Assembly: GCA_011033025.1 (NCBI GenBank)
Contig: WFMF01000106.1
Coordinates: 248,001 to 312,000, forward strand
Direction of reading: 5' to 3'
Source: Beroe forskalii
Taxonomy: Eukaryota; Ctenophora; Nuda; Beroida; Beroidae
Length of the DNA stretch: 64,000 nt
Each line of letters starts with the position of its first letter. The stretch's first letter is position 1. Below, in pieces: positions 120 through 63,320 of the stretch. A program made the translations under genes and the position numbers. Under the pieces are notes generated by a model that saw only the letters and a program-made list of their open reading frames with translations, searched no databases and was not told the origin of the DNA.

Positions 120-285
120 TAAGCCGTGTCTTACAAACCGTTTCCCAGTTGATCCTGACCCTCGTCCCATGGACAAGGAGGACGTGGCTGAAATGTCGAT
201 GGGAGAATCGGCAGATAAAACTGCAACCATGAGGGTGCAGTTTATCAATCTCCTCAGGGTCAACGGACTCGAGATTGAGATTGAG
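120..285 (+). CDS. Anoctamin copy 1, N-terminal domain exon
   Basis: Encodes NRFPVDPDPRPMDKEDVAEM, then a stretch ending RVNGLEIEIE of the cytosolic dimerisation domain; donor GAG|GTATGC at 286. The start at 120 (ATATCAG|T) is inferred: the frame is closed upstream by a TAA at 106-108 that is absent in copy 2, so either this is the true acceptor or copy 1 is damaged here. Confidence 0.75.
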
Positions 286-9200: not shown

Positions 9201-9487
9201 TTTCATAATTTGATTGATGATAACAAATTGATGATTCCTATAATTTATATAGAAGTTGAATAACTGGTCCCTTCCCTCATACTCTCATACTCTGTTAGTG
9301 TCTAGGTTCTTGGGGATAAGTTCTGTATCACGTATTCTATTCCATATGCATCAATGTGCGTATATAGCTTCCGTCAATGAAAATGATTTCACGTGATTTC
9401 AGCTTTACTGAAACGGGCGTTATATTAAAATGATGATATTTCTTCTTCTGTCTTTGTTATGAAAATATGATATTTCAATTAAAAATA

Positions 9488-9519
<32 letters not shown>

Positions 9520-42000: not shown

Positions 42001-45000
42001 TGATTTAATCATATTCGAAAACTACTGATATCTAAATGACAATATGAAATATGTGGTGGGCTTGTAAGTTGGCAAATTCTGTACTTTCATTGCTTTACAT
42101 TATCACTGAAAATGTAGCAAAATATCGAACATTTTATGCCATTTTGAATCCCAAAATTAATTGAAAATTGAGGTATTCAAAAATTAAGCCAGCACGTCAT
42201 TAAGCACCATGAAATTAGGCCCTTTTAGAGGCATTGGTGCTTAATTTTCTGAGTGCTTAATTTCCTACAATAAGGTATACTATGCTTCTCAACTGATAAA
42301 GGTGTTTCGTGTAGATAAAAGTTTAATTGTATTTTTCAAAAGAAGATTCAGTGAGTCTGTGAGTAGTACTCACATCATCCATCTCAAGATCTGGTGGTTT
42401 AGTCCTAAGCTGAGAATGGGAGAAGGTCCTGAACCGGCCCACCATGGACCTTACAGCAGACTTCAGGTTGTCGGGAACATACCGAGATGAGTCAAATATC
42501 CGGTGATGATGGTGTTGCCTGGATTTCAAGTCAATTGGAAAGTGGAAGAGGAACTTAATCAAGAGAACAGTCACATACGTTCCCTGCAATCATCAAAAGA
42601 AAATCTTATAGCCGGACAAGGATTCTGAAATATACTCAAATTTGGATTTTAGGATTCCAGAATATATCTAATTTAATAAATGAAATATTATTAACTTTTC
42701 AAATCACTTAATTTGGAGAATGTGAAATTACCCATTTCCAGGATGCTCCTCCTCCTCCTCGTGACAAGAGTTGGGGAGTTGGTAAAGGTTCTCATTGTAC
42801 ATCGCTATTAACTTGTCAACGGGCTTATCATGCTCAAGATCCAACACTGATCCTGGGTTATTGTTCACTGTTTTGAGGGGAAGAAAGATAAGATCCAACA
42901 CCAATCCTGGGTTATTGTAAGATCTGGTGTGAGGGGAAGAAAGATCAAGATAAGATCCAACACTGATTCTGGATAATTGTAAGATCTGTTTTGATGGGAA
43001 AAAAGACAAGAAACTCAAGGAGTGCAGAAACTTCATGGCTTGAGAGATTTTAAGAATGCTTTTTGGCGGTATATCAGTTTTCAGGTGGTGTCTTTCGAGC
43101 AATGTTTGCCAGTTGTTCCAAAAAGGCAAAACACAAGGCAAAAGGGGACACAAAAGCAGCATGCATTATTCTTTTTACACATATTATCACAGTCAACAAG
43201 AATTGATGATCCAAGATCCAGCATCTTGTGAAATTAATTTCTGGTTTGAGCTTCAATGAAGAAAAACTGTGTCAGCAATACAGAGATGAATGGAAAGTTA
43301 GCCTCCTAAACCACATAAGTCATAAGTGCTACCGTATAGATGCTTTCTCTCAGATGCAAATATCAGTCAGCATGCATTATCTAATTATAGATATTTTGTT
43401 ACATTTAAAGCCCTGCTATTGTAGATTGTGCTGGAGCCGTGACAACAACACCTCACAAGATAGAGCCAAATTATGGTTAATCGCAAAGTAACCAATAGGA
43501 CCAAATCGAACAATAATCAGAAAGAGACACGCTGATGTTTTTCCAAGACGGAGTAGGCAATGATTTGCCTACGACAAACAGCATATATTTTATAACAAAA
43601 TTGAATGATCTTGAACCTTATTTAACTAAATTATTATCTTTTTATTTGTTCAAAATGGAGCCATAAAGACAATCCTTTCAAAATCACGTATTACTACGGG
43701 ACACACATGAAAAAATTCTGCCGATATCTTTAAGGAAGGGTGATTTATACAAAAAAGTTAAGAGGAAGTTTGAGTACGTGATTTGATTTACGGTTGGATC
43801 AATGAAGATCGTAAGTCTCCCCATAAACCGTGGTCCCAGACGGTTAGAACTTGGAGAGGATGTACCCGATGTATCATATCACAATTAGGACCCCTACTTG
43901 TGGTGTCCTAATTCACACAGAATTTGTTGGTCATTTAATTGGCTGTGATCCTTTATTGCGTGATCTGCTTGAAGACACCGCTCAACTTTATCCGATTTCA
44001 CGAAAAACCAGATTCCGGTATACATCATTAGACAGCAGAACTTGCTGCAAGAGGCAAATAAATAAAGGTCAGTGTAAGAATGTATATATTGTATAAGCCC
44101 GGCTCAATTCTCAACCATTTCGCTACCATACTGAGTTCAGTGTTGAGAATGTTCCGGTACAGTGAAGTCAGGATCAGGCTCCCTATTGAAGGGTATTTTA
44201 TCGAGCCGCTGGTCATACCAATAGTATAATTGATATCAACCAGCCGTTTATAATATACTCTATCAATCCCTGATCTATCGTTTGCTTTTCATATCCAACG
44301 TTATTTGACGTACAGTACTGCACTACCTAGTCTGGAGGTACCTACTGAAAATCCTATGTGGATTTCATACTCGGATTCAGATATTCACATAAGATTAAAA
44401 GGGGTGTATTATGGGATTATGAATCTGATCACCAATTAGCGTATAAAATGTATGTGTAATTTAACTGGAATATCGGGAAATGTTAAAATTGACATATGAA
44501 TTCAGTTGCAATAAGAGATGAAGGTTGCATGAGATAATGGATACAAGGACACAGGATCACTGACAATAATCAACAACGAAAATTACAGGCGCAATTCTCG
44601 TCGAGAAAAATAGTACCAATTTTAAAATAGTTTGATAAACAATTAATATTAATCAGCCGTTTAAAATATTTGCAATCAATCCCAAATCTAGCACTCGCTT
44701 TTCAAATAGGTCAAATTTACCGCAATTAATATTTGATATGTAACTATTCACTGCTTTAATACAATATCATTAAACGATATGATCGGAACATGCTAATTGC
44801 CATGCATCGCTAGCAGATCATTACATAGAGAATGATAAGCCATTAATTGAAACATAGAGGGTTCCGTCGATATAACACCCGATTAAAACGTAGAATGGGG
44901 GGTAGTCAGAAGGTTGGGGAATGGGGAGATGTTTCGAGGGTCGCGTCGATACCCAAACAAAACATGAAACAAAGAGTTTAGGTAGGGAAGATACCCAATC

Positions 45001-48000
45001 AAAACATAGACTACAGAACGAAGAATTCGATGAGAAAGTGAATACAATGGGTTACGAACAAACAGCGTTGTATTGATAGCCCTTATTAAAACATAAAGCA
45101 ATATATTGTCAGCCACTATAAGAGCATGCAGCGTAGTAATGCTAGCCAATCAAACTCCGAGCTTGTTAATGCCAGCCAATCAAACTCCGAGCTTGTTAAT
45201 GCCAGCCAATCAAAGTGCGAGCTTGTTAATGCCAGCCAATCACATGATCCCACTTACTGAGTCTGCCCCAGTTGCTGACCCCCTCCATGTAGCCACTGAG
45301 GGAGGGGTAGAGCCGCTTAACTGGGTGCCGGGGTAATGTCTCAGCTGCATCACCAGAGACATCAGCATTAGCGGAAGAGACATCAACTTGATGCACATCA
45401 GGATACAGTGAAGCATCATTAGGGTTAACTTCACTCCTGACATCACCCCTCCAGACATCACCTCCTCCAATGTAATTACCAGTCGTGACATCGATTGCAG
45501 GGCAGATGAGGTGAGAGATGTCAGGGTCTGGCGATGTCTCGTCACCACACTCAGCAGCGACAAACCCAGCTAGGTTTGGTGTGGTGAATATTGGGAAAGA
45601 GAAGAGTATCATAGGGACACAGATTCAACAGAATGCATATAGCATCCTATAAGCAAGATAAACAAGAAAAAACCATCAATAGCAGCTCAAACTTATAAGT
45701 CAACCTGTTGGATAAAAAAAGTTCAGCTACTCGGTGAGCTATTTAGTTTACCAGTGTTATAACATTTTAATAACATTCTAATAACATTCTCATAACATTC
45801 TAATAACATTCTAATAACATTCTAATAACATTCTAATAACATTCTAATAACATTGAATCGTTATACCGTCAGTGTTCCGGTGAGTGTAGCAGTCATCATC
45901 TCCAGCAATGTGGTGATGGAACTTCCTCTCTGTTCTCCAGCCACTCACCAGATGCGCTAAAAACATAGCATTAATATACGAGAGTAACCACTCACCAGAT
46001 GCGCTAAAAACATGACATTAATACGGGAGTAACAACTCACCAGATGCGCTAAAAACATGGCATTAATACAAGAGTTATAACTTAACAGATGCGCTTAAAA
46101 CATAGCATTAATATACGGGAGTAACAACTCAAAAGTTACGCTAAAACAGGTTGCAAGCAACTAAACCATCTTTCTCCTATTTGATGGTAGCAGCGTATTT
46201 TATTATTATCATAAATATTAATATGGGAGTAACAACATTACCAAATGCGCTTGAAAACCAGGCATTATTTTAATGTAAAGACTCATCAATCCCACTTGGT
46301 GCTCAGAAGTGTACATTGTGTGCGCGACCGTACATTCTTAAAAAATAAATATATAATATCTGATCTAATCAGACAAAATTATGATTGCCTATTTCGAAGA
46401 GTACACAATGTCGAGATATGAAATCGAAAGAAAGACACACCACAAAGACGGAAAATAGTAGCGACCAGGATACTGATGCAATTACGCAATCAGTTCCTAC
46501 AAGCCTTACTGATAACATCAAACAAATGAGTACCCTGACTACCTTACATTAATCCAGGAAGATCTTACAGCACCAACGAGTTGTGATTCTACAATTGATA
46601 CCAGAAACAGCAACTCCAACTACCCCGATATGAACACTGAACAGGGGTTACGTGATTACATCATGTCTTATTATATGGGTCACCTCATAATTCCTATTGA
46701 AGTAATGCTCCTAACTCCACCTATCGATGCACCAGAGATGCACCCTGTGCAGGGTGCAGTCTTACAGGCCTGTAAGACTGCGATGAGACGACCGCACCAT
46801 TCTTTTACTCCGGGGCTGGCTATACTTTACACCAAAAAAAGACAAAAAAAACCGAAGAGCTAAAGGCTCTGGCGATGCTTCTGAACTCCTCTCTGCATCA
46901 AGTGAGAGAGGGGAAATGAAGCTTATCAGAGCGATGAGAAATCGGTAGAATTCAGATAGTGATAATTATAACAATATTAAAATATTCAAAAACACTATTC
47001 TAGTATTCTTTGAAGCTTCAAACAAACTAGATCAGAGGAATCAATCTTGAAATTGAACTCAATCCCAGCAGCAAAGCGGAACCTATACTCTACAATAAAT
47101 TTAGGAATAGGAATTAGACATCTGCATGATTGATGTGACCACAGTGGGACTGAGGGAGAGAAACATGAGAACTAGTTTCAATATGTGAACCGTGTTACAA
47201 GTTCCATGCGCAGATTCAACTTAGGATCAGAACATCTCAGATGAGACAAACTAAATCTGGCCAACAAAAGAAAAAATAGCTCTGATAAAACAGCCAAACT
47301 CCTTTCAGCATTATGTGAGAGAGGAAGGGCAGCTCATCAGAGCAACAACAGATTGGTAGAAGTCAGATAATGATAATAAAAATAATAATGATAATAATAG
47401 AATATTCAAAAACTATATTCTTTGAAGCTATAACAGAGTTCCTCGCCGGAATTGGTCAATCAAAAAAAATGAACTCAATCCCAGCAGCAAAGCGGAACCT
47501 ATACTCTACAATAAATTTTAGAATAGGAAATAAGGATTTAGACGACGTCGATACGATGCAGAATTCAACCGCACGATTGATATGACGACAGTGGGACTGT
47601 GGGAGAGAAACTTGTGAGAACTAGCTTCATTATGTGAACCGCGTTACAAGCTCCATGTGCAGAATTGTAACATATCAGATGAGACAAACAACACTGGACA
47701 GAAGCCCCATACCAAGTCCGAACAGCTCTCATGAAACAGCCGAAATCCTCTCAGCATTATGTGAGAGAGAGGAGGAGCAGTTCATCAGAGAAACTAGAGA
47801 TTGGTAGAAGTCAAATAATGATAGAAAATTCAGAAACAGACGGTTTTCTTTGCAGCTTGCAATACCACCAGACTATAGAATCAGAGTATAGACAGAATAT
47901 AGAATCAGCGTTCCTCGTAGAAACTATTCACTAAGGTTCTTTAAGGATGCAAGGTTCAATAATAGATCCACAACATTAACAGAAAAGATCAAAATGTCAT

Positions 48001-51000
48001 TGGATGAACCTAATTAGCTATCTGGAATATAGAGATGATATTTTATAAGTAGACTGCTCATTAATTTGAAATTTAGAAGAAAGCGAAAGATAATAGGTAA
48101 CCGTACCCTATGCCCACAGTCGCGTTTGCCCACAGTCCTCTATGCCCACAGTCCTCTATGCCCACTAGGAATTTAGTGGTCAATAAGGACCGTGGGCGTA
48201 CAGGACCCCAGTCCTATTTACCCACAGTCCTGTATGCTCACTACCAATACAACTAATTAGCATATCAATAAAGAGAGACTGGAACCTAGTATTCATTGTT
48301 AGCGTTGTTACAAGGATTCGTACTGGAAGATTGGCTATGGCTAGTATTGCTGATTAATAAAAGGGTGAAAAGAATTTAAAATAGACTCATCAGGCTAATT
48401 GCCATGCGTGAACATTGCTCAAGACGTGAAGTCCCTACTGCCTAAACCCTATCTCCTGAGGATTGAGGAAATGCAACCGGAGATACCGAAACAAGATTCA
48501 ACTTGCTCCCACAGCGCCACAAACTGCAGCTGACAGCTTCTCTGGTCGGTGTATGGCCTGCCATTCCTCCCAGTTCCTGATTTCATATCTGCATGGACAG
48601 AGTTGAAGACTACCCTGTTCAGTCTGCGTCCAATAGCTGCCATTTCCAAATACATTGCGTATTTCGAAAAGAACTGGATTTTCAACGCATCCTATCCTAT
48701 TGCCATGTGGAACGTCTCTTTAGCTGTTGAGTACGAGGAACCCAGGACAAACAACGCTTCTGAAGGCGGGAACAATGGACTGCTCGGATGTTCAAGTCGC
48801 AGCACCCGACCATCTGGACATTCATTGGGGAACTCCTTGCATATCACGGCGAGCAAGAGACGAAGTTCCTGCAGAGTGCAGTTGGATCAAGGAGAAAACC
48901 CGAATGAGCCCCAGAAACGTAAATGGAGAGAGCGCGAAGAGAAACTGAAACGTCTGGTTGATGAGTACGATCCATGCAGAAAACTTACATTCATTCATAC
49001 GATTTGGTTGTAACTATTCTTAAGGTTAAGTTATTTTTGGTAAATTTCAAGTTATAACGATTGCATGTATGAATCTTTAAAGTATTTCCTTATTTCAGAT
49101 TTTACTAGAAAATTACAGATGCATCAGAGACACTCCCTTTCCTATGCTAATCCATTATCAATCATTCGTGTGATGTAGTTTTTCGTATCGTACTCAAGTA
49201 TTCACTCTTTTACTGTATAAACAGACGCTTTCCCTTAACCTATCGCAATGAAAGAAAGCAATTACTCGATACATTAGTAAGGATTAGTCAGCAACGTGGC
49301 GTGTAATGTTAATTCAAAGCTGAAATGTAGGGTTATACTTGTTTATGCAACCACCTCATAGTGGGCAACGGCGACTGTGGGTAACGGAGTCGATTTGGTA
49401 CTCTATGACCACGATCAGTACTTGTGGTCATAGGGGACTGGTGGTCATAGGGGACCGTGGGCATACGGGACTGTGGGCAAACAGTACCGGAATCAAGATA
49501 ATAGAAACCACCTATGACTAAAACTAGTTAATAGGATAATTTATCAGGATCATTATGTTCTAAAAAACTTTTTTGAGAAGAGCGAGAGATATGAATCAGA
49601 GAATTGAATCATGCCTTATGATTAAACCAATTAAACTCGTTGGGAGATGACAGGACCGACCGAGTAATTCTTTGAAGGATAAAAATGGTGGATGTGCGAA
49701 ATTCCTGTTCGTTCTGATAACGTTTTGGGTTTCAACGTATCATAATTCGAAGCAACATACCTCTTTAAGAATTAAGCAATACCCCACCAAACGGAAGGAA
49801 CCGAAAAGATGTACCCGAGACGCACCACTCTACCACAGTGATAGAGCAACAACAAACCAGAGATTATAGACGCTTCTTGATCAACACCGGGAATTGGTAC
49901 TAGAGAGGTAATAGCTCTGATGTTACTGCCGAACTCCTTTCAGCATTATGTGAGAGAGGAAGAGCAGCTCATCAGAGAAACTAGAGATTGGTACAAGTCA
50001 GATTATAATAGAACATTCAGAAACAGACGGTTTTCTTTGCAGCCTGCAATACCACCAGACTATAGAATCTGTGTTCCTCACAGGAACTATTTCCTGAAGT
50101 TCCTACCCTCCGTCAAAAATAATAATAGATCCACAAAATGAATAGAAAAGATCAGAATGCCATTGCATGAACCTAAATAAGTTCAAAGGATTACATTATA
50201 CACAAGCAGCTGATTATTATCATTAGATACCTAACATTAGATACATACCCATCCAAATACTTCATGGAATATTATGATGTTGAAGACATGTTCATGTCAA
50301 CATGGTGATGTTAAGATGGTTCAAGAATAATAGCAGATGGTTCTCCAGAGACAGGACACGAAAACAGCAATGAAAGCTAAAAGAAAGGGGCCTGGCGAAC
50401 CCAATTAAAGCGATATTTTATATTTAAGTATCAATTATAAATATCTGCAAATTAATCAGAAAAATAGGATAATTATCAGTTTATTTTGATCAACCAATCA
50501 GCGGGCAGGCAGAGTGTATTCTGCGCTCTGATTGGATTTATGGTTATAACCATTGATTGGACCAAGAATAGAAGTAGGTGGTTTGTCAGAACAATACGTT
50601 CACATAACGAAAAGAAAAATCGATGGGGATATTCCTCGGTGCGAAACGGGCCTGGCCGAGCCCATTTAGCTCGATGTCAAAGCTATTTGCATAGCATTCA
50701 GGAATGTGACAAATATGATAGGCTTTAAATTATTACATCAATAAATGGATATATCTTGTGTTATTGGTTAACCAATCAGCGAGCAGTAACAGAGTATTAT
50801 GCGTGCTGATTGGATGACTTATTACCGTAGGGTGGTTCAACTGGTTTCATGAGCAGGAATTTCTCGGCCCAGGTATCCATGGCAAAGTTAGATCCGCAGA
50901 TCTTTATTGCTCTGTACTCCTCGAACTTGGAGGAGAAGTTCTGAAACAAATCGAACTTTTTAATTAAATTTAGAAGGATTTAACACAATTGAAAGAGGAT

Positions 51001-53911
51001 AATGTATGATTTATGAAAGAAGTTACTCTTCCCAAGAAAGAAGAAAAAATCTGGCAGAAGATAAATTGGAACTCGGCGCTAAGCTCGGAAATTGATTCCA
51101 GTAACCAACTTCGAATAGGTCTCTAGCAGAAGTCCACGAGTTGAATCAAATAAGAAAAAATATGAAATACTACACAGTTATACATAAACAGTTAAAGATA
51201 ATGCAAATATTTTAACCTATCCGCGCATACCTCAATCTCAATCTCGAGTCCGTTGACCCTGAGGAGATTGATAAACTGCACCCTCATGGTAGCAGTTTTA
51301 TCTGCCGATTCTCCCATCGACATTTCAGCCACGTCCTCCTTGTCCATGGGACGGGGGTCAGGATCAACTGGGAAACGGTTTGTAAGACAAGGCTTACTGA
51401 TATATTGTTGGAAGCAGAACAAGGCCTCGACCCAAAAGGGGCTTGAAAAAGTTCGGGAACATCTCTCTTTCCCAAAGTCCCTAGATGATGAACGTATTTC
51501 TCCGGTGCGTGAGGTAACGAAGACCCTTCAAGAGGCGAAATTCAAGCTCATATTCATGGGCGGGATTCCGTCAAATTTCCGGAATAAGCGTAATGCAGTA
51601 ATAAACGACCAAATGAAGAATGTTTTGATTTGTAACATCAAACAGTAAGTCAATATTGTCATTTAAACAAGGTAATTTAGTTTTTATTCAGAAAATTGGT
51701 ATTTTAGTATTAAGTGTTTAGCCCAATTCCGTTTTGTCATTAATCGGGCTTCACAAGACACAATCACTGGAAGACCAAATATGGAGACTACAGAAATTTT
51801 AGAAGAACAAAATACATAAAATATGGGCAATCCTTATTCAGATCCAAGAGTTCCAAGATGATAAAAATCAGAGAAAGTTTTCAAAATTTTCTTTTCATTT
51901 CAAATTTTTGTTTTCCTTTATATTGGCGAGATTTTTTTAAATTCTTTAAAAAAGATGTGTGGATATAAAACGCGCACACCGAAATTATTGCTGAGAAGGA
52001 TTTCTGGATGAAACCAGTAACAGCTGACAGGTTCAAAGTGTTAGATAACCATGGCTGTGCATCATGGCTGGGAACAGCGTATTCGACAGAAACTTGATCA
52101 GTAACTTGATTTATAGTTATCAGTATCACCATGCTTTGTTAGGCACTGTCTTTTTAGCATTCATCTTACCACGAGACCATTTAATATTACCACGAGACCA
52201 TATAATTTTTTCAACAAAATAAATTGCGTCGTACGTTTTTGGACACTACCAAAATATAATGGCAAATGTGTGGAATGACACATCTGATGCATTATTGAAT
52301 GGGGTGTTCGTATGGACGCGGACCTCTAACAGCAGGATTCAGCCGGAGAAATGAGCCCTCGAAGACGAAATAGGTAGTAGCAGTGACACAGTTCAGAAAT
52401 TGGGAAAGTTCCGGAATCGTCAACTTAGATACCATCAAGAGATACTATCAATAAAATCTAAAGATCAATTTTCTCTAACATTTAACTGATTGAATAGTAA
52501 TTATTGACAGTGATTATAATATACACTGATTTGTCATAAAGCGAGGTCTCAGGTCGGTGTATGATGGGTGACGTCATTAACTCACCATATCCTAAGACAT
52601 GACGTCATCTACTCACCGCATCCGGACGCTGGGTCCATGGTGGATTTGAGGGGTTTGTAAACGAGGACGAAGTCAACTTTCTTGTCTGACGTCCAGGGGG
52701 TGTACTTGGAGGTGGATAGGTTCGTCAAGACCTGTCCAATTGGGAAAATAAGGGGGTTAAAGAGGAAGAAGACCTGTCCGATAGAGGGAAGAAGTGGGGT
52801 TAAGGAGGAAGAAGACCTGCCCAATAGATGGAAGAAGGGGGTTAAGGAGGAAGAAGACCTGCCCAATAGATGGAAGAAGGGGGTTAAGGAGGAAGAAGAC
52901 CTGCCCAATAGATGGAAGAAGGGGGTTATTAAGGAGGAAGAATAACGTTTTCTGTCAGGGAAGAAGGGAGTGGGGTTAATATTACAATATCACAAACTAA
53001 CGTTCGAGAATGACTTTGAGAGATTTTCTGATTTATCCCCCGACAGAATATATGTTAGTTCAGTTGTTTGAGTTGTGTGAGACCGTTATAGAAAGACAAA
53101 ACGGGTGCTGCTACTTGTAACAAAGGAAATGTTCTTGATGACAATTGGAGCCGAAAAGCATATGGAGCAATAACCTCTCAAACATGACAGAAACAAAGAG
53201 AGTTGTAACCACCCATGCATCTGAGCACATAGACTATAGAGATTAAGAAACAAAAAGGTAATACTAATTATTTATCATTATTTATTGATATTTAAATTCT
53301 CTTATTCCAAAATTTGAGTTTGGACCTTGTTCTCAAATGGAATCAGCAGAAAAGGCCATATTATCAGCAGAAAAGAGCTATATCATATTATGTGCATATT
53401 CATGACCACAACAGCAACTGGAAGCATGGAAACATAGAAAATTTATTATGTAAGTTGTATGATCGAATTTATCATCGAATATCGTGTAAGAGAAGAAATA
53501 GAAAATATGTTGTGAGTACAGTCTATCATCAGACTAGGAATCGGTTCCGATAGGAAAAGGGTCCATCTTGCAAGGATTATTATCGTATGTCGAGATCCAC
53601 ATCGAGGCCAATGAGATATTTTAAATTTTACAGGAAGATAAGACGCTGAGTCTACGAGCTGAGTTAGAGATGCTAGCAAGTAAGATGCTTAGGACGCTCG
53701 AAAACCATGCGTATTGAGATTTGCGTCCATGCAATAATACCTGAATCGCGTGCCGTTTGTAGTTCCTCCGGATGGATTTCTTGGCGTGACGCCAGCGTCT
53801 GTCTGCGTCTGCCATGCTCTGTTGACTCGTGATACTGTGAATGTCTTCATCATCAGTGATAATGTTGCTAGGGAGGTTGCGAGGGAGGTTGCTAGGGAGG
53901 TTGCTAGACAT
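29882..53911 (-). CDS. Anoctamin (TMEM16) family gene, copy 2 (nearly complete)
   Basis: Inverted duplicate of the + strand anoctamin. Exons in gene order: 53911-53741 (ATG), 52731-52617, 51396-51231, 50940-50826, 45956-45867, 45569-45258, 42852-42732, 42518-42374, 41421-41231, 35750-35657, 34467-34302, 33919-33788, 33458-33262, 33038-32895, 32706-32566, 32330-32160, 32009-31865, 31719-31631, 31451-31256, 31099-31010, 30844-30502, 30281-30115, 30009-29882 (TAA). They sum to roughly 1180 codons, somewhat long for the family because of extra cytosolic exons. Splice phase closes at every junction except between 52617 (phase 1 out) and 51396 (phase 2 in), so a small exon there is missing or one boundary is wrong. 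Exons 34467 onward encode the same residues as copy 1, so both copies look functional. Confidence 0.93.
30115..30281 (-). CDS. Anoctamin copy 2, TM10 exon
   Basis: Same residues as 26868-27034. Confidence 0.95.
30502..30844 (-). CDS. Anoctamin copy 2, TM8-TM9 exon
   Basis: Same residues as 26334-26676. Confidence 0.96.
31010..31099 (-). CDS. Anoctamin copy 2, EYVDNIIQL exon
   Basis: Same residues as 26107-26196. Confidence 0.94.
31256..31451 (-). CDS. Anoctamin copy 2, TM7 and linker exon
   Basis: Same residues as 25740-25935. Confidence 0.94.
31631..31719 (-). CDS. Anoctamin copy 2, CAPGGC exon
   Basis: Same residues as 25466-25554, with a strong donor GAG|GTAAGG. Confidence 0.95.
31865..32009 (-). 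CDS. Anoctamin copy 2, TM5/TM6 exon, GT donor
   Basis: Same residues as 25142-25286, but the donor is a normal AAGG|GTAAAC. Confidence 0.93.
32160..32330 (-). CDS. Anoctamin copy 2, TM3/TM4 exon
   Basis: Same residues as 23695-23865. The next intron is only 150 bases here but 1.28 kb in copy 1. Confidence 0.94.
32456..32512. repeat. 11-bp tandem repeat AAGCCCACAAA
   Basis: Five units inside the intron between 32331 and 32565, right arm only. Confidence 0.95.
32566..32706 (-). CDS. Anoctamin copy 2, TM3 exon
   Basis: Same residues as 23368-23508. Confidence 0.92.
32895..33038 (-). CDS. Anoctamin copy 2, TM2 exon
   Basis: Same residues as 23023-23166; silent substitutions only. Confidence 0.95.
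33262..33458 (-). CDS. Anoctamin copy 2, TM1 exon
   Basis: Read base by base against 22598-22794: eight differences in 197 bases, all silent. Confidence 0.95.
33788..33919 (-). CDS. Anoctamin copy 2, QPINIVKNYFG exon
   Basis: Same residues as 22167-22298. Confidence 0.94.
34302..34467 (-). CDS. Anoctamin copy 2, FPLHAGGY exon
   Basis: Same residues as 21669-21834. Confidence 0.92.
35657..35750 (-). CDS. Anoctamin copy 2, FYNSSERSLM exon
   Basis: Same residues as 20597-20690. In this arm the acceptor and about the first 70 bases of the exon are repeated three more times upstream (35751-36240). Confidence 0.88.
35657..36240 (-). repeat. Four tandem copies of a 3' splice site with partial exon
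   Basis: Units of about 135-140 bp. Each has a pyrimidine tract, (C)TTAG or CCCTAG, and the exon start encoding AI(R)APFTYAKKCRFLGHSEP. Only the unit at 35657-35750 goes on to the full exon and donor; the other three break off after GAACC and run into the next pyrimidine tract. The left arm has one copy. Confidence 0.9.
36612..36730. repeat. Stem-loop element, copy B right
   Basis: Mirror of 20095-20212, with the ACGTACGT core kept. Confidence 0.65.
37664..37930 (-). pseudogene. Captured coding fragment inside the TIR element
   Basis: About 86 codons, ending with TAA after AVAAGKLL. It contains LSLAKFLKVEKIPESSFYRK, RRIAELMILDGPRFDYLVKQ and SDKINQQVLSDRCAEILKTD. The frame is open and the composition is that of a basic helical protein, not of the satellite around it. 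Family not recognised. It fuses in frame upstream to the 11-bp repeat peptide, so any expressed form would carry that tail. Confidence 0.6.
37931..39470. repeat. 11-bp satellite (NACTCCCGNNG)n
   Basis: Units alternate GACTCCCGGGG and TACTCCCGTAG. Because 11 is not a multiple of 3, every frame reads the same 11-residue cycle and several long overlapping ORFs (over 400 codons) appear on both strands. I treat these as artefacts. Confidence 0.95.
39777..39878. repeat. Stem-loop element, copy A right
   Basis: Mirror of 19289-19395; the GTACGTACGT core is more symmetrical than in the left arm. Confidence 0.65.
40982..41047 (-). CDS. Possible 66-base cassette exon, copy 2
   Basis: Counterpart of 18136-18201 with the same phases and open frame. 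Confidence 0.35.
41231..41421 (-). CDS. Anoctamin copy 2, WTTKLNNWFF exon
   Basis: Same residues as 17767-17957; only silent substitutions seen. Confidence 0.8.
41637..42275. mobile_element. 639-bp TA-flanked MITE
   Basis: TIRs begin CCTTATTGTAGGAAATTAAG and are perfect for 26 bp. Comparison with the empty site in the left arm (about 17505) shows a 2-bp TA duplication, as in Tc1/mariner-type insertions. A 65-bp block (AAGCACCATGAAATTAGG...) repeats near each end. No ORF. Confidence 0.85.
42374..42518 (-). CDS. Anoctamin copy 2, HHHHRIFDSSRY exon
   Basis: Counterpart of 17230-17374 with one residue change (His for Asn in the histidine run). Confidence 0.75.
42732..42852 (-). CDS. Anoctamin copy 2, poly-Glu exon
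   Basis: Same as 16890-17016 but with five Glu instead of seven (121 versus 127 bases), and two decoy acceptor copies upstream. Confidence 0.78.
42835..43005 (-). repeat. Triplicated acceptor of the poly-Glu exon (right arm)
   Basis: Three units on the minus strand, each with a pyrimidine tract, a CCAG and about 16 bases of exon start. Confidence 0.85.
45140..45246. repeat. 30-bp repeat after a donor site (right arm)
   Basis: Four units of the 30-bp repeat also seen at 15205; copy number differs between arms. Confidence 0.85.
45258..45569 (-). CDS. Anoctamin copy 2, variable cytosolic linker exon
   Basis: 312 bases versus 321 in copy 1. Differences: an added Ala (VAAECGD), SPDPD for SAEPD, NPND for NSND, VSSA for VPSA, and four residues lost from the DVS repeat. 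The frame is kept throughout, which supports coding. Confidence 0.75.
45765..45855. repeat. 11-bp tandem repeat (right arm)
   Basis: Mirror of the array at 14596-14680, with slightly different copy number. Confidence 0.9.
45867..45956 (-). CDS. Anoctamin copy 2, HLVSGWRTERKF exon
   Basis: Counterpart of 14495-14584 with identical length and residues. Four further tandem units with acceptor-like sequence lie just upstream in gene order (45957-46150). Confidence 0.7.
45940..46150 (-). repeat. Tandem copies of an acceptor plus exon start (right arm)
   Basis: Five units on the minus strand, ending TTTTTAG|CGCATCTG in three and in degenerate forms (TTTTAAG, TTTTAG|CGTAAC) in the outer two. The innermost is the real exon start at 45956. 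Confidence 0.8.
48097..49494 (+). mobile_element. Mutator-like element remnant
   Basis: 10-bp target duplication AAGATAATAG at 48087-48096 and 49495-49504; the left arm has one copy (about 12886). Ends are imperfect inverted arrays of TGCCCACAGTCCTCTA-like repeats. It holds a decayed transposase segment. Right arm only. Confidence 0.85.
48549..49013 (+). pseudogene. MULE-type transposase C-terminal fragment, frameshifted
   Basis: The first frame gives LPFLPVPDFISAWTELKTTL and later PRTNNASEGG, matching the conserved RTNN.(S/V)EG.. block of MULE transposases in invertebrates. The next part, typical HPTIWTFIGELL, is in a different frame (about 48775-48905), and the Lys/Arg/Glu-rich end KRKWREREEKLKRLVDEYD returns to the first frame. 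Two frameshifts make it non-functional. Only the C-terminal part is present. Confidence 0.75.
50826..50940 (-). CDS. Anoctamin copy 2, NFSSKFEEYR exon
   Basis: Same residues as 555-669 of copy 1. The following intron (45957-50825) is 4.9 kb here. Confidence 0.88.
51231..51396 (-). CDS. Anoctamin copy 2, N-terminal domain exon
   Basis: Counterpart of the exon at 120-285, encoding the same residues. In this copy the frame stays open further upstream (to beyond 51420), so the acceptor choice at 51396 rests on the closed frame of the other copy. Confidence 0.75.
51424..51648 (+). CDS. Antisense open frame of unknown function in anoctamin intron
   Basis: The + strand encodes KGLEKVREHLSF, then SLDDERISPVREVTKTLQEA and FMGGIPSNFRNKRN, ending near a GTAAGT (51646). 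The left arm edge (complement of 1-100) keeps the same frame with a 9-bp insertion and related residues, which suggests past coding in this direction. Family not recognised; possibly a captured exon or transposon piece. Confidence 0.35.
   Translation, partial: ASTQKGLEKVREHLSFPKSLDDERISPVREVTKTLQEAKFKLIFMGGIPSNFRNKRNAVINDQMKNVLICNIKQ
52569..52616 (-). repeat. Duplicated 5' splice-site region
   Basis: On the minus strand GGTGAGTAGATGACGTCA at the true donor is followed 35 bp later by GGTGAGTTAATGACGTCA. Use of the second donor would read through a TAG. Each copy carries the palindrome TGACGTCA. Confidence 0.8.
52617..52731 (-). CDS. Anoctamin copy 2, exon 2 (VDFVLVY motif)
   Basis: 38 codons containing KKVDFVLVYKPL, the hallmark that opens the anoctamin cytosolic dimerisation domain. 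Acceptor GGACAG|GTCTTG; donor TGCG|GTGAGT, phase 1 out. Directly upstream in gene order are four tandem decoy copies of the acceptor (52731-52950), and directly downstream the donor region is duplicated (52569-52616). Confidence 0.85.
52726..52960 (-). repeat. Five tandem 3' splice sites before anoctamin exon 2
   Basis: 42-bp units on the minus strand: CTTCTTCCATCTATTGGGCAG|GTCTTCTTCC and variants, four decoys and then the real GGACAG|GTCTTGACG. Each unit has a pyrimidine tract, CAG and the first five exon bases. Confidence 0.92.
53741..53911 (-). CDS. Anoctamin copy 2, first coding exon
   Basis: 57 codons from an ATG at 53911 to a CAG|GTATTA donor. It encodes an SNLP repeat (SSNLPSNLPRNLPSN), an acidic stretch ITDDEDIHS, then a basic segment RRWRHAKKSIRRNYKRHAIQ. 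It joins in phase 0 to the exon at 52731. An in-frame ATG also exists at 53956, so the start could be 15 codons further upstream. Cytosolic N-terminus. The counterpart in copy 1 lies left of the window. Confidence 0.65.
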
Positions 53912-55410: not shown

Positions 55411-55481
55411 AACACACACACACACACACACTAACACACAAATACAAATACATACACACACACACACACATATACACATAC
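55411..55481. repeat. (CA)n-rich microsatellite
   Basis: Interrupted ACACAC and ATACAC runs. Confidence 0.95.
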
Positions 55482-56614
55482 ACAAACATGTTTCTCAGAA
55501 TTTCACGAATCTGTGGCCCTGCACAGTAATTTATTGGCTAAGGTGTGTTTCCATACCGCAGTCCAAGTGCTGCAATATAATGATCAATCCATGTCTCTAC
55601 ATATTAAGAGGTGTGGCACGGATGGAATGATTTATTAGCCCTTACCGCTCTGCAGAAACATTCAGAATGTGCACGCTGCACACGCTAGTGAGTTACGTGG
55701 CTGTGATTCTGATAGGCAAAGGTCGGTCGGAATCTTTAAAATTAGTAGTAATACCTTTCAAAAATCAAAAGTTAATCTTGAAATCAATCCTTCAATCAGA
55801 AATGGTTTCCATGGGAAACTTTTGCTTTTGCTCACAAAAATTTATAAGAATTAATGTCATGACTGCGTCATAACAAGTCACTTAGGTGACTGTCATAGTT
55901 GTTGACTGACAATGACGTCATGACTACAGCTAAAAGTGGTGACTGGTGATGTCAAAGCAACCAATTTTGGGTGCAAATTTTATCTAAAACTATCAAATTT
56001 AGCCATGTGACCATGTTTAGCTATCACTATATACCATCATCTCATAGTGACTTGAGCTATTGGGTGTGGGCTTCTCTTGGACCTCCTGTTCGATTTACGT
56101 AGTTCCAATAATTAGTAAGGACACTGCTGCTCCCTCCGATATTATCGTATTACAAGATGTGTCAAGATTTTAACGCGACATTAATACACACTGTGTGTTG
56201 GATGTGTATAGCTCTATGTTATACACATTATACATACATACACCCACATGATATTGGTACGTGAGGGAATTAGTGCCTGGTGGTACTGGGCACCAGAGAA
56301 TCAGTACTTTCAGTATATACTGACACGATACTATTGTCGCAGAATGCTTTGTACGAAGCCCTGCCAACTCGGAAGTGAGTAGCGAGCCTTTCATCTTCAG
56401 CAATATAAACATAAAGTCATACCAATTTAGCAATTGTCAGGTCAAAGGGTTTGCCTGCGTCGATTGGAGAAGACATTGCGAATATACAACTATAAATAAC
56501 ATATAAGATATAGGTATGACCAGGGGCAGTACTCAATAATACCGGCACACGAGTCCCTGGATGTGACCCGTGTCCCAATTCTGGGACACGAGGTTAAAGA
56601 TTTCCTCGCGATCC

Positions 56615-56659
56615 AAATATTTAGCCGGGGACTGGACCAACGATCTCTAACTCAATATC
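56615..56659. repeat. 45-bp direct repeat, copy 1
   Basis: AAATATTTAGCCGGGGACTG and the following 25 bases recur exactly at 57160-57204. Confidence 0.95.
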
Positions 56660-57159
56660 AAATCATCATTGCATAACGCTTACGTAAAATGGCCTTAAAG
56701 TCAGGAAACAATGAATGCCGAAAGTATGGACAAGAACAGATGGGACCCGGTAAGCTTAGTTAGCGTCCATGATAATACTAAACCGTCTATGCCATCACTG
56801 ACATAGCATCTGTTCAACTAACGATTTAACAAACAAAGAAACCATGACTGAAAGGTTTAATTCCAAAATACTAGCTAGCTCTGAAAAGAATTGAGTACCG
56901 GTTCAGAAGGCTTGTCGGGGGCATGAAAGGTGCTTTTCGAACTCTACTTCGCACGAGTGTTTAGAAACACTCTCTTCATGTGCCGTTCGAACTCTACTAG
57001 GACACTGGAGTGTTAAAAAACACTCTTACCTCTGGCGAAAGGTAACAGGCATTAACAAATAAAATTGCACCAAGGGCTGGCTAGACCACTTGATCTGACT
57101 TCCTATCTGAAACCGGTTCTGGCGAAAGAGGTCACAGGGTTGCCAAGTTAAACATTGTG

Positions 57160-57204
57160 AAATATTTAGCCGGGGACTGGACCAACGATCTCTAACTCAA
57201 TATC
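57160..57204. repeat. 45-bp direct repeat, copy 2
   Basis: Identical to 56615-56659; a shorter related ATCTTTAGCCGGGGC is at 57666. Confidence 0.95.
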
Positions 57205-57340
57205 TAACTCAATTCAGATGTTACCAGCTCCTGTTAGGATTTAAAACAGCAATCCTTTTTAGAATGATTCAAACACACGCATTGCTGTTATCCGCTTCAA
57301 TAATCTGATTATACAGAATTATACACATGCACATTGTCAT

Positions 57341-57404
57341 TGTCACGTGATCCAAATGTCACGTGATCTCCAACCAAGTCACGTGACTCTTAAATCATGT
57401 GATC
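57341..57404. promoter_or_regulatory. Cluster of CACGTG-type E-boxes
   Basis: GTCACGTGAT, GTCACGTGAT, GTCACGTGAC and ATCATGTGAT within 63 bp. The first three match the GTCACGTGAC type bound by MiT/TFE bHLH-Zip factors in animals. The target gene is not known. Confidence 0.5.
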
Positions 57405-60400
57405 TACACGGTACTCAGCTAATATGATCCCAGAGAATGTGTGTAGTGTGTGTGTGACAAATTCAGGGGCTTCAAATTACACATCTTATGTTAGCAGGTG
57501 GTGGAGTATTTAATAAATAGAAACTATTTTGAGATGTTGCAGTTCAGTGAAATGAAGCTCATATTATGTATGTGAAATGATGAACAGTTGCAAGAGTGTT
57601 ACTTTGTTCATTGATGGGGAAATGTTGAGACAAAATTGAGGCATACTTGTGACAAATTGTGCTTAATCTTTAGCCGGGGCAAACCTGGACTGTGGAATGC
57701 CTTATATAATCTACCAAACGAAACTATGTGAGTGAAAATATGACCTCATGTAAAAAGATGGCTTCTTATCTCTATGGAAATGGCCATAAAACGCATTAAA
57801 ACTGACTTCATGCTACAGCCTGAATGCACACATAGAGAACAATATTTCGCCATGTTCTAATATTGACCTTCCCAGTATTTCGTACTCCATTCTCTTTCTC
57901 ACTCTGGAATTCCCACTTGACGTTGTCTTTAGCTCCGCGGTATGATTAATATAACACGGGAGAGAGTAAAGCGAGCTGTATTCCTTGATCCAGTGTGATG
58001 ATGATGAAGATGGTGGTGAGTGTCTTTAGCACAATCTGTGTACACAACGAGTGGAGTGTGGAAAATGTCGTCATTTTCAGGGTGTAGAATAGTGTGGCTA
58101 TGACGTTAGATCGCTCACTGTTCGAGCGTTTGATCGTGAACTACACGACTCTACACAAACTCTAATATATATTACAGTGATCATGTCATTGTACAACATG
58201 AAGCTTTACAGAAGTGAACGTTCTAAGAGCTTAAAGCACAGTGTAGTGTGTGTGTGGAGAGAAGTGAAGGGTGAACTCTACATATAATGTGGTGAGAGCT
58301 GATAGTCAATTAGCTGAGTAACCATGTGGGCAGGATGTGATCCTAGTATCGTGTAAAGACTTAACCAGATCCTATTTATTGAGATTCTGTGAGAGAGATT
58401 CTTCTGGCAACTTGCCATTGATTAGCAGTTTAAAAGAAGAGAATTCTGTCTTTTTAGAGAAAAGATCATTTGGCTGTTTGCCGAAGAAATGTCGGGTTGT
58501 AATCCTTCATATACTTTGGAAGTTCAGGAGCCTGAATAATAATTAGTTCAGGGTCTTTGTTAAGGCAGTAATTCTCATATAAGATTACCATGGTCCTCTG
58601 AAAATATCCCTTGAAGAGATTTCCTGACAGCACCATTCAGCGCTGTTTGAAATTTTAAAAGTACAACAGTGAGATAGATAAAAAGTGGTCATCAAATAAA
58701 CCCATATAAACCATTCATACTGACTCCTATTCGCACCTTCTCCCAAGTATAAAATTGGTCCTTCCCCAAAGCTTATTTATCTAAATTTAAACTTTAAATT
58801 CTCCAGACTTAAGTCCTCTGGCGTACCCCAAGGAGTTTAAAAATAGTTCAACCCTTTACTGACAGAGTATACAATTATCATTTCATGATATTTTATATTC
58901 AACAAAGAGGTAATCATTCACCACGATATATATTTGGGATTTTATGGTAAAGTGTCATCACATGTCACATATCACAGAATATATGGTTGTATTTAAACTC
59001 ACTTCGCACCGTGATTTATAACTCCTCCGGGCGATTGTGCCAGGAATGCCGGCTCCAGATCAAGGTTAAATATTTAAAAGAGTTCATGTGGTTTGTTTAA
59101 ATCCTTCCGAGAATTTGAATAACTTAGATGTGTTCGAAGAAAATATAGTGGTTTATTAATTAGAGTTTTGATTTACGTTATTTGAGCATTAATTGTATGA
59201 AGCCATGAAACGGTTGGAAACACAAGATGTATTACAATTTTTATCGATTTTCTTTTGGTTATACCACCAGAACCATTAAATAAGGCGTAATTGAGGTAGC
59301 CTAGTTGAATGAAACATATAAATGTATCCAAGGGCAGTGGACACCATTATCTTGATTTAATTATGTTTAACGAAGTAAATCACGTTTTAATTTATAATCT
59401 GCAGTTAATTATGACTTTCCGGCAGCATAATTCTGAGTCTAATTTAACTGTAATGATTAATTACCTGAACTAATTAAATTTGTTGTTGGAGATTTTATCC
59501 GTTTATTAAACATAATTTCTGGGGTGGAGTTAGGACCCTGGAAACATGATAGTATAAATGTTAGTATTAACTTCGATCATAGTGATGAGACGTCTGCTGC
59601 TTAATGATATGATCATCAGACCTACACAGACAATAACTTCCACCTTCTGAAAGTGAACCATTGAAAGGGAATGTAAATGTACGGTAAAATGAACCGTTAC
59701 ACTATACCAATGTCTGTAAGGTCACATGTCAACCTACAAGAAGTAAAGACACCCCTTTCCATGACATCATAGCTTCTATTGACAATGTGATTTGTTGTCA
59801 GCATCAGATCATCTGACCTTGCTGTCTGCTGCTTGAATGTGTGTCTAGAGGTATATCATTCTGTGTATCACGTGACAGTAGGGTCATGCAATCACCGGTA
59901 CTCTCTGCACTATTACTCAGTCACAGATTTCGGGTTCTTATCACTGAACTGCGGTAGATTGCAAGGAACATGATATGAAATGATAGTCTGAGGTAGAAAA
60001 AAGAAATAATCGGAGGTCGTGAATTACAAATATATATAGGCGGTATAAGTCATCCAATATCCATTCCCCATTCTAAATCTTGAATATGAAGTCATATTAG
60101 CAAGTATTCCTGCCCTGGTATTTTGTACTCTACATATAAGGTTATTTCGATCTAAAAACGGTACTATTTTCATGATTTTAGTCAGATTCTATTTTTCGAA
60201 TATTTCATGAACGTACCCGCTGAGACAAAATTCAATTTTAGAATTTTTAACTGTAAGAGTGTTATAAAGGACCAGGGCAAGAATGTAATATTGTTTTTGG
60301 CCTTACAAATAAGATCCTTGGCATTTACATATTATGCTGACTGATAACTTTAGGCTTTAAACCAATGAGTGACAATGACTTTGCCCTTGAATTATTCCAA

Positions 60401-62599
60401 AAGCTGAAATAAATTCTACATTGATAAAACCTCTTTGCTAAATGTAATCTATTTTAATGCCCAAAATGTGTACTTCGAACCTCAACATCGTTACTTACGT
60501 TGTGGAATGAGGGTCTCATCAGAGAGCTCTTATTATGAGGCTTTTGTGTAGCTCCATTTTACTAATGTTGTGATAAATAGCGCTGGGTCCTCTCTTAAAT
60601 TAACTTCTGCAACTTCTGGGAGGAGAAGAAGGGATTCGTCACAACTCAGCTACACCGACAAATGTTCCTTCCGAATGTGCATTACTAGAAAAACCCGCAA
60701 ATTCATGGTATTATAAATCCATTAGTTTGAAATTCGCACAATCTTTACAAATAACTCGTACATACAGCATAAATTCGCTAAAAATGAAGGAGACGCAAAA
60801 GAAGGCTCACTCAATAATTATTAAGTAGCACGTGCGTGTGCGCGCGTTACTTGGGTCAAGAGTCAAGACAGATCGAATTTTAGCCTCAAAGTGACCTTTC
60901 TAGACTTGTCGTACGACAACTCTATTATTAAAGCTCTCATCGACTTCTTAAAATCTGATATGCACTCTCACTAATATTTTCAATTGTCCTGCAAAATGAC
61001 CCAAAGTTTTAACCCCATTTATTGATGATATTTGTTCCCAAACCACATCATAGTTTTATTGTAACATTCAAATCATCCAAATATCTTGAGACTTCTTTCT
61101 GTCGGGCATGCTAGTTTTATTGTTGAGTTAAATTATACCAACCTCATTTTAATTCCACAGTTAAATGTCCATCAGCCTCGCCTTAAAAAGTTATAAGCCG
61201 GCCGCCTATATACCTGCTCCTTCATAAAACATCTCATGTTTTATTGGGAAACACCCTCATGCTATACCTTATGGTTACTCCAGTATGTGACTGAGTGATA
61301 TTACGTTGGATAATAATAAACTCTGCTATTAAAAATAATCTGCTATTATGTGCTATTAAAATTTTATTAAAATGACTTTTTATATCATATAAATACCAAA
61401 AACATATCTTGTCTTTGAAAATATCATGATCATTACGTAATGAATAAAATATCAGGAATATCATTTTACAAGAAGTGCATCTTAATATCTGTCTGTGGAC
61501 CAGACAGGGATTTACGATTTCTGGTGGGCGCTACCTTGAAGTTTATATTCCCCAGACCCATTAATAGTGCAAAATTAAATATATTGCGTTAACTTCCATC
61601 ATAAATAGCCTTTAATGGATATTAATGCAAATTTAAATATTATATTAGGTTTTAATACATAAATAGTCATTCATACCAAATAATAGTCATATAAGGCTAC
61701 AATATAAAACTGACTCCGATCCCACCGAATTTTCCATAGAATTGGAGGGCTAATATAGGCTAGACTGTGACCATGTGTTCCTCTGTGACAGCGTGTGACA
61801 GCATTTGACTGAATTTTAATTGAAGTGCCGATTATAATGCGGGCTATGGGAAGCTTATTTTGGGAGGGAAGTTGGGCAAATTGACGAAGTTGCAATTACA
61901 GTGCCACAATAATGATCATTGAACGTCAAAGCTACACCTTCAACACAAAGATGAGAAATGAAAAAATGACAGTGAAATTAAGAGCAGGGAAACGTCCATA
62001 TTTTGTATCTTTGTAACTTTGTTACACATCAGGCGTGCGTGTAACATTCCCTAGAAGATATCTTGTGTCAGAGGCCCGCCATTTCATACACAATGCACCA
62101 ATCAATCCGACTGGCAATTAATCAGAGGCTCCCTAATTTCATTAACCACATTGTCATGTTATATGGTGGGGGTCCAGTGTTAATTATCTGTACAAATCGC
62201 ATATCATCCGAATTATTACACAACAATTCTACCCGGTAGAATGCACGACACACAATGTGTGTCAGATGATTCATTCCCACACAAAATATTCGGCTCACGT
62301 ACAAATGATAAAAGTTTAAGAGATTGTTGGAAGGTTACATTATATTTTATACGTTGAACTTTTGAGAATTTCTTTGTTTCCTTCTTCATACAGTACAAGT
62401 ACTCAGCATAATTATCTTGCTACTTTTAATTCTTTGTATATTAAATTTAAATGCACTGTATGGTAAAACCTTGGTAGACCCGCATATATTCAAACCTAAC
62501 ATATTTACTGAGTTTTGTGTGTAATCCAACCCATTCCTAACCTGTACTGTGTTTGTAAACGAGCGGAAGACGGTTGATATGCCATGACGGTTGAGATGA

Positions 62600-62736
62600 T
62601 GACGTCATTATGACGGCTTACAGTGGTGCATTCATGACGCAAAACTGTCCATTTTATCTCGTGCACACGGCTTCTAGACTTGTGAACCTGGTATATTACA
62701 TACCCACACGAGAAATAGGCGGATGAGATGACGTCA
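62600..62736. promoter_or_regulatory. Pair of TGACGTCA (CRE-like) sites
   Basis: TGACGTCA at 62600-62607 and 62729-62736, both in GATGACGTCATTAT context, about 600 bp before the exon at 63318. Possible promoter elements of that gene. Confidence 0.4.
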
Positions 62737-63249
62737 TTATCATAGCGCAACCTAGTACGTTGATGTCGTTGAACCGCCTATTTTTCGCGCGCGGGGTTTG
62801 ATAAATAATATGTTATTTCGGTGGATGTTGTTAGCCTTGCCTGGAAGTGTTAAAATGAACGTGAGAATTATAAAACTTATAGGACCAGTGAACTGTGTAC
62901 ACACTATGATAAAAGGGTGTGTTTTAGCCTGTCTGTTTTACGCGTTTTTAAGTGTGTGGGATGTTTGTTTGTGTGAAAGTTTGTTATATAGGTGTGCACT
63001 GTGTAGGTATGTTTAGGTATGTCTGGGGTTTGTTTTTAGAGTATGTTTTAGAGTAAGTCTGTAGAGTTTAGGTGTGTTTATTAAGTGTTTGCTAAGTAGA
63101 TGTGCTTGTATAATTGTGAGGATTTGAAAGAGAAATTAACCATTGACTAAGCAGGCATGTGGCGACATAATCAATTAAAAAGTCAATAATATTGATTCGA
63201 ACATCACGTAACATGTTCAAAGAAATAAACCGTAGTCCTCAAACCTGCA

Positions 63250-63320
63250 GTATTACTGATAACGTGTTGTTCAGGTTGATCCCAAACTTCCAGTATTACT
63301 GATAACGTACTGTTCAGGTG
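63250..63320 (+). repeat. Duplicated 3' splice site of the downstream exon
   Basis: Two units of about 43 bp: CAGTATTACTGATAACGT then GTTGTTCAG|GT and ACTGTTCAG|GT. The second leads into the exon. Confidence 0.85.

Follow-up and report, generated by a model that had tools for sequence, protein, structure and literature searches.

Tandem arrays of splice junctions in two anoctamin gene copies are probably minisatellites that span the junctions by chance

Two convergent anoctamin gene copies in the window, the 64,000-nucleotide stretch of DNA analysed here, contain tandem repeats in which every unit includes a 3′ splice site and part of the exon start. We regard these arrays as probable 'mirages', that is, minisatellites whose unit includes an exon–intron junction by chance and which reflect the ordinary birth and turnover of repeats in a genome rich in them. 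Gene 2 lies on the (−) strand, with exons found over 30115..52731; gene 1 is its inverted paralogue on the (+) strand, with exons over 120..27034 inside the window and its 5′ part before it. A haplotype misjoin is an unlikely source of this inverted pair, given that aligned blocks of the two genes are about 79–95% identical and that the arm lengths differ greatly.

Upstream of the gene 2 coding exon at 52617..52731 (−; ...KKVDFVLVYKP...), for which 97% identity with the gene 1 copy and intact splice sites argue, Tandem Repeats Finder identifies a 42-bp minisatellite of 5.0 copies (52727..52942, −). The units are pyrimidine-rich and end in AG·GTCTT (the dot marks the junction), an acceptor with about 5 exon bases. 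Two copies of a 31-bp donor unit, GGATGCG or GGATATG followed by GTGAGT (52562..52623, −), span this exon's 5′ splice site. The gene 1 copy of this exon lies just outside the window and has 10 acceptors before it and about 21 donors after it, the latter in an array of the 31-bp unit at C66:246273-246922 (C66 is the discovery locus). The exon resembles the anoctamin dimer region; a Pfam search with it gave no matches. When exons were joined and translated, anoctamin-1 was matched (E 6.7e-22) over a stretch that contains the 35750 exon but not this one.

An array of about 45-bp acceptor units (TTTTTAG·CGCATCTG; 4.4 copies; 45943..46146, −) precedes the putative exon at 45956, and a paralogous 47-bp array of 2.5 copies (14395..14510, +) precedes 14495. 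Exon 42732-42852 is preceded by three acceptors, each with about 19 exon bases, in an array of 54–62 bp units (42834..43011, −) that Tandem Repeats Finder splits into 42834-42951 (54 bp) and 42881-43011 (62 bp), jointly about 3 copies; the paralogous 56-bp array of 2.1 copies (16791..16905, +) places two acceptors before exon 16890-17016. Before exon 35657-35750, a 140-bp array of 3.9 copies (35686..36234, −) contains four acceptors, each with about 65 exon bases. All of these were called by Tandem Repeats Finder. Two copies of a 43-bp unit ending in CAG·GT (63243..63320, +) were seen directly in the sequence before a putative exon of another gene (63318-63407), for which a Pfam search gave no matches. 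Most of the C66 exons rest on conservation between the paralogues, which is the main support for the 42852/16890 exon (three synonymous and no non-synonymous codon changes); the 45956/14495 exon, with two synonymous changes and one non-synonymous, is more tentative.

Acceptors were counted as AG-ending places matching at least 21 of the 32 bases of a junction. This gave four at 45956, two at 14495, three at 42852, two at 16890, four at 35750, one at 20597 and two at 63318. At 52731 exon and units diverge beyond GTCTT, so that only the true site was returned; with units cut at AG·GTCTT the count is five. These counts and Tandem Repeats Finder, with direct view of the 63318 pair, confirm the arrays of the original prediction, and its copy numbers hold at 52731, 42852, 16890, 35750, 20597 and 63318 but are one too high at 45956 (four found versus five) and 14495 (two versus three).

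Copy number differs between gene 2 and gene 1, at 5 versus 10 acceptors and 2 versus 21 donors for the 52731 exon, 4 versus 2 for 45956/14495, 3 versus 2 for 42852/16890 and 4 versus 1 for 35750/20597. Related arrays occupy the same junctions in both paralogues, with differing unit variants as well as copy numbers, and this sharing is more than chance. The prediction also held that the arrays recur with mutually unrelated units and are not one mobile repeat. Both points stand: similar arrays are present in other genes, and a 501-bp query containing the 52731 array matched only its own place and the paralogue on C66, so a mobile repeat can be rejected for that array.

Frequencies were obtained from an independent set of 111 junctions (57 acceptors and 54 donors) in other anoctamin and myosin genes, these being the located members of 112 contexts taken by eye from Pfam-matched exons. 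The myosin junctions come from five stretches, and both C455 and C455b, which are recent copies of each other, are included; the set omits several unclear exon ends, 30 kinase loci and the anoctamin matches on C691, C246, C497, C159 and C314 (one open frame or unclear ends). Arrays cross six of the 111 junctions (5%), one of these crossings, C348 acceptor 127173, being uncertain. Acceptors (3/57) and donors (3/54) are crossed alike. Over all arrays, those in the window included, the units are unrelated and range from 22 to 193 bp. The predicted specificity for 3′ sites is therefore not upheld, as donors make up three of the six crossings here and are multiplied to 21 copies in gene 1. At C66 itself, acceptor crossings outnumber donor crossings (7/42 versus 1/36; Fisher P 0.063), which counts somewhat against chance placement.

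Arrays cover about 8% of the DNA examined, and in the independent genes their coverage is lower at junctions than in intron interiors. In the rigid-shift profile of the independent set, arrays cover 6 positions at the junction, 10 at 20 bp into the intron and 10–14 of 105–111 at 40–300 bp (about 9–13% of points), against 1 at 20 or 40 bp into the exon; the shift runs past the ends of short introns, so that the interior values are, if biased at all, too low. Judged by the intron flank of each junction, 12.9 crossings are expected versus the 6 observed. Array coverage at C66 shows no junction peak, with 8 of 78 at the junction, 10–12 at 20–80 bp and 6–11 at 100–300 bp (6.8 expected). A close local second copy was found for 202 of 2148 interior 24-mers versus 6 of 111 junction 24-mers. 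When tandem repeats spanning 3′ sites were compared with 5′ sites and intron positions, the 3′ sites of the sampled junctions largely failed to stand out, contrary to the original prediction.

These profiles bear directly on a mutational process centred on splice junctions (R-loops, or pausing or template switching at pyrimidine tracts), which we consider unlikely. Several arrays do begin within a few bases of the junction, as such a process would have it, and there is an excess at the level of whole arrays. With exon overhangs of up to 20 bp, 6 of 37 arrays in the independent set cross a junction where 2.46 are expected (P 0.023), and 8 of 44 cross at C66 where 1.72 are expected (P 0.00015), although C66 is the locus of discovery and its paralogue pairs are counted twice in this test. 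This excess also argues against chance placement. Under a 70-bp overhang cap, however, it disappears from the independent set (5.28 expected, P 0.43), and the real C328 array, extending about 85 bp into its exon, exceeds even that; at C66, 3.58 are then expected (P 0.0175). Coverage that rises from the junction into the introns of the independent set, the flat profile at C66 and the more frequent duplication of interior 24-mers all argue against the process. The predicted centring on junctions thus mostly fails, and what is left of it is a weak excess of arrays under one of two nulls. The arrays may have a mild preference for junctions.

Across the whole genome, tandem word counts do not reveal splice words to be consistently over-represented in arrays. 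The acceptor word TTTCAG occurs in 6140 tandem triples (22 per single occurrence in the DNA examined) and its reversed form GACTTT in 1100, a ratio of 5.6-fold raw and 3.3-fold after single-word scaling. Two composition-matched controls, CAGTTT with 4895 triples (24 per single) and TTTGAC with 3000 (19 per single), show that TTTCAG is ordinary once scaled, and its enrichment in arrays was rejected. Of the donor words, GTGAGT falls below its reversed control (12649 versus 15823) and GTAAGT lies above it (7241 versus 4961; 51 versus 20 triples per single). The latter values and the 3.3-fold ratio of TTTCAG to GACTTT are points against chance minisatellites. Distinct clusters counted by eye among the matches listed in the first 0.9 Mb of contig C1 number 6 for TTTCAG, 5 each for GTAAGT and GTGAGT, 9 for CAGTTT and 1 for TTTGAC, all of them local counts.

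The chance-minisatellite reading is supported by the similar crossing of acceptors and donors, the lack of a coverage peak, the copy-number differences between paralogues and the amphioxus precedent. A short local duplication would arise at random in or near an intron, through template switching or slippage during replication, and would later grow by slippage or unequal exchange. A junction-spanning array could be tolerated as long as the exon is still joined correctly, presumably through the exon-proximal copy (the last acceptor or the first donor), because the extra copies then leave with the intron. Crossings that disturb splicing would be lost, which would explain why junction coverage in the independent genes is about half that of intron interiors. 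Arrays shared by the paralogues would be older than the gene duplication and still turning over.

It is also possible, but decidedly unlikely, that selection preserves the additional acceptors and donors because they are used, in alternative or buffered splicing. The 42-bp unit of gene 2 keeps the reading frame, which stays open across the entire array, and a unit search that itself required AG gave 10 AG-ending units for gene 1 and 5 for gene 2, close to the Tandem Repeats Finder copy count. Homogenisation alone would keep the AG, however, and the gene 1 frame is broken by a 41-bp unit and by stop codons. Periods of 42, 45 and 54 bp are multiples of three, but many are not (22, 28, 32, 34, 49, 56, 140 and 193 bp), junction crossing shows no coverage enrichment, and RT-PCR suggested normal splicing in amphioxus (PMC3087553). 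We likewise give little credence to a broader proposal, in which minisatellites across junctions are a habit of the whole genome of a non-amphioxus, ctenophore-like animal (roughly one junction in 20 in the sample) and at least some clusters, reaching 10 acceptors and 21 donors, serve in splicing and are retained as redundant or variable sites, in numbers that diverge rapidly from one gene copy to the next.

The arrays are very unlikely to be remnants of intron gain through tandem duplication of an AGGT-bearing exon segment, as proposed for amphioxus mirages (PMC3087553). A myosin intron on C225 has CATTAG·GT at each end, and one C281 intron consists largely of donor units and a copy of the next exon start, but the C66 arrays lie on one side of introns that hold much other sequence. 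Assembly or read artefacts are extremely improbable, even though one amphioxus mirage appeared to be mis-assembled in the genome draft (PMC3087553), since arrays occupy corresponding junctions of two paralogues (aligned blocks about 79–95% identical) but differ there in unit variants and copy numbers, and such arrays also turn up in unrelated genes on further contigs.

The original prediction knew of no such pattern as a genome habit, yet PMC3087553 and PMC3902484 had already described it in amphioxus as mirages: both boundaries are affected, many units contain AG/GT, lengths are unstable and RT-PCR products are normal. The same sources report similar repeats in PGBD5, and a 2002 amphioxus Adh paper is cited within PMC3087553. 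The arrays here resemble these mirages in a unit that spans the junction, in 5′ and 3′ boundaries, in AG/GT in many units, in varying copy number and in an intact flanking exon, and units of 22–193 bp compare with 10 to about 160 bp. They differ in that the animal is apparently another one, the rate of crossing was measured and compared with intron interiors, and one exon has both a 10-acceptor and a 21-donor array. The copy numbers compared here are those of paralogues, while the instability of amphioxus mirages is one between haplotypes or in the soma. A profile search here gave no zf-C4 nuclear-receptor matches versus 104 homeodomain matches, which does not indicate absence, as the zf-C4 search matched no control genome. 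Amphioxus has many nuclear receptors, and the animal is apparently a different one; the counts would suit a ctenophore. Ctenophore nuclear receptors are reported to lack the zf-C4 DNA-binding domain (PMC3038971).

Three other structures may be compared, in a literature whose open-access papers, as searched, included none that describes junction arrays of this sort in animals other than amphioxus and human. NAGNAG tandem acceptors have more than one AG before an exon, two AGs being 3 nt apart; here the spacing is tens to hundreds of bp, and most copies include a pyrimidine-rich stretch and the exon start. The 31-bp VNTR of human CBS, a single polymorphic locus, crosses an exon–intron boundary and, like the units here, repeats a splice site. 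Human genes in segmental duplications have internal tandem repeats at exon–intron boundaries, with units of 30 bp on average (PMC2812944). These too are minisatellites, some at boundaries, that vary between paralogues; they are transcript-supported and, in recent primate paralogues, are reported to give rise to introns, whereas the paralogues here are older.

The resemblance to amphioxus mirages apparently widens their known range to another animal lineage and supplies a rate for a little-known structure, 6 of 111 sampled junctions against about 9–13% of points 40–300 bp inside introns. An exon with 10 acceptors or 21 donors beside it poses a natural test of how the spliceosome chooses the correct copy, and multiplied splice sites supply material from which introns can be gained and exons extended. 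Gene finders and splice-site studies should also take note that, in genomes rich in repeats, splice motifs can be multiplied by chance.

The arrays that the original prediction placed at named splice junctions are all present in the window sequence, and most of its acceptor counts agree, some being one lower on recounting. With exons named by acceptor position, five acceptors precede the 52731 exon of gene 2, and the gene 2/gene 1 paralogue pairs have four clear acceptors and two (45956/14495), three and two (42852/16890) and four and one (35750/20597). Two acceptors precede a putative exon at 63318, called solely from its open frame and splice motifs; a Pfam search of it found no match.

The window, positions 248001–312000 on contig C66 in a 216-Mb genome, contains two convergent anoctamin (TMEM16) genes, gene 1 on the plus strand and gene 2 on the minus strand. 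The pair stems from an old inverted duplication, with aligned blocks ~79–95% identical. It spans positions 1–55284 and the stretch preceding the window (L041), with arms of ~33 and ~27 kb by collinear blocks. Exons with splice sites conserved in both copies were listed, and the joined translation of the gene 2 exons matches anoctamin-1 (E 6.7e-22, query residues 63–365). The 35750 exon lies inside this matching stretch and the 52731 exon outside; the latter, for which a Pfam search gave no match, is a predicted exon based on conservation between the two gene copies. We also note a 172-bp tandem array between the convergent 3′ ends (27634–29031), an apparently transposase-derived open frame of 996 aa within the gene 1 region (3206–6196, minus strand) that matches the hAT dimerisation domain (PF05699, E 3.2e-05), and a GC-rich array in gene 2 (37928–39464) with ~11-bp periodicity, TCCCGTGGGAC and variants, for which the repeat-finder output holds no gene 1 counterpart.

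The pattern had been described as one of 3′ splice sites, but donors are multiplied as well. In gene 1, the counterpart of the 115-bp 52731 exon lies just ahead of the window; it is preceded by 10 acceptor units of 42 bp and followed by a 31-bp array with 21 copies of the donor site GGTGAGT, versus 5 acceptor and 2 donor units in gene 2. The two exon copies are 97% identical; thus, splice-site arrays can arise at either exon end, and copy number shifts while the exon persists. The reading frame through the 42-bp array is open in gene 2 but not in gene 1.

Tandem arrays also cross 6 of 111 junctions (57 acceptors, 54 donors) in an independent sample from a few genes on other contigs, whose exons were taken from Pfam models for anoctamin and myosin head and whose splice sites were read by eye. 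The crossed acceptors are C348 127173 (itself uncertain), C328 174059 and C225 1033085, and the three crossed donors are C348 127933, C281 412590 and C785 21210. The predicted repetition of acceptor plus exon start recurs cleanly at the C225 acceptor, in a myosin gene (34-bp unit ×8, ...GTTTCAG/TTCAACCCGTT). Separately, an anoctamin intron at C281:412343–412590 (L018, L028) consists mostly of 49-bp donor units, and the first bases of the next exon are copied upstream, ahead of the acceptor. A myosin intron at C225:1030929–1031944 (L079), mostly a 16-bp array (×54), has identical CATTAG/GT at both ends and was possibly gained by tandem duplication.

Is array formation centred on the junction, as originally predicted? 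The junctions of the independent set were slid rigidly into introns and exons, and those inside arrays were counted. In their true places 6/111 are covered; shifts of 20 and 40 bp into the intron give 10 and 13, shifts of 60–300 bp give 10–14 of 105–111, and a shift of either 20 or 40 bp into the exon gives 1; 12.9 crossings would be expected were each junction covered like its own intron flank. On C66, the contig containing the window, the counts are 8/78 at the junction (6.8 expected), 10–12 at 20–80 bp and 6–11 at 100–300 bp. A test independent of the repeat finder agrees with this coverage result: 24-base windows have a close local second copy (at least 20/24) at 6/111 junctions and 202/2148 interior positions, the interior windows overlapping and hence not being independent. 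The array-level test is partly at odds with these base-level tests. In the independent set, 6 of 37 arrays cross versus 2.46 expected for exon entry of up to 20 bp (P 0.023) and 5.28 for up to 70 bp (P 0.43). On C66, which was chosen on account of these arrays and where paralogue pairs are counted twice, 8 of 44 cross versus 1.72 (P 0.00015) and 3.58 (P 0.0175), respectively. Taken together, strong centring is absent, and mild centring is compatible with the data.

Splice words were counted across the whole genome wherever a six-base word stood three times in tandem at gaps of 10–40 bp, and these counts were normalised to single occurrences outside arrays in 282 kb of genome sequence, a coarse test because overlapping matches in long arrays dominate the counts. 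The acceptor word TTTCAG (triples/singles 6140/279) resembles two of three composition-matched words, CAGTTT (4895/203) and TTTGAC (3000/159), and exceeds the third, GACTTT (1100/165). The donor word GTAAGT (7241/143) is 2.5-fold over its reversed control TGAATG (4961/245), whereas GTGAGT (12649/146) is under TGAGTG (15823/140); TGAG-type simple repeats probably inflate both of the latter counts.

Other genome-wide observations concern repeats and gene content. A ~41–42-bp minisatellite around ATGGTACCAT may be dispersed, since it is present on two unrelated contigs (L069 115–500 and C173:211459–211843). Among the 30 best protein kinase matches, 27 extend over 255 or more of the 263 model positions in one frame without a stop, one has a TAG and two are partial, which suggests many kinase genes without an intron in the kinase domain. 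Whole-genome searches gave 104 homeodomain matches and 0 for the zf-C4 nuclear-receptor DNA-binding domain, an empty result that is no proof of absence; the combination would fit a ctenophore, whose nuclear receptors are reported without a zf-C4-type DNA-binding domain (PMC3038971), and makes amphioxus an improbable source.

The pattern had been thought unfamiliar as a genome habit, but the structure is already described: junction-spanning arrays match the 'mirages' of amphioxus, which are reported to affect both 5′ and 3′ boundaries, to hold AG/GT signals in many units, to vary in copy number and, as RT-PCR suggests, to leave splicing undisturbed (PMC3087553, PMC3902484). Human repeats at exon–intron boundaries are likewise reported to differ among recent paralogues (PMC2812944). 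Here too, arrays are abundant, cross acceptor and donor boundaries and differ in copy number between paralogues. Such arrays could begin with random local duplication and expand through slippage or unequal exchange, those harmful to splicing then being lost. The exon-proximal splice site would presumably be the one used; many unit lengths are not multiples of three, so the other copies, if used, would often shift the frame.
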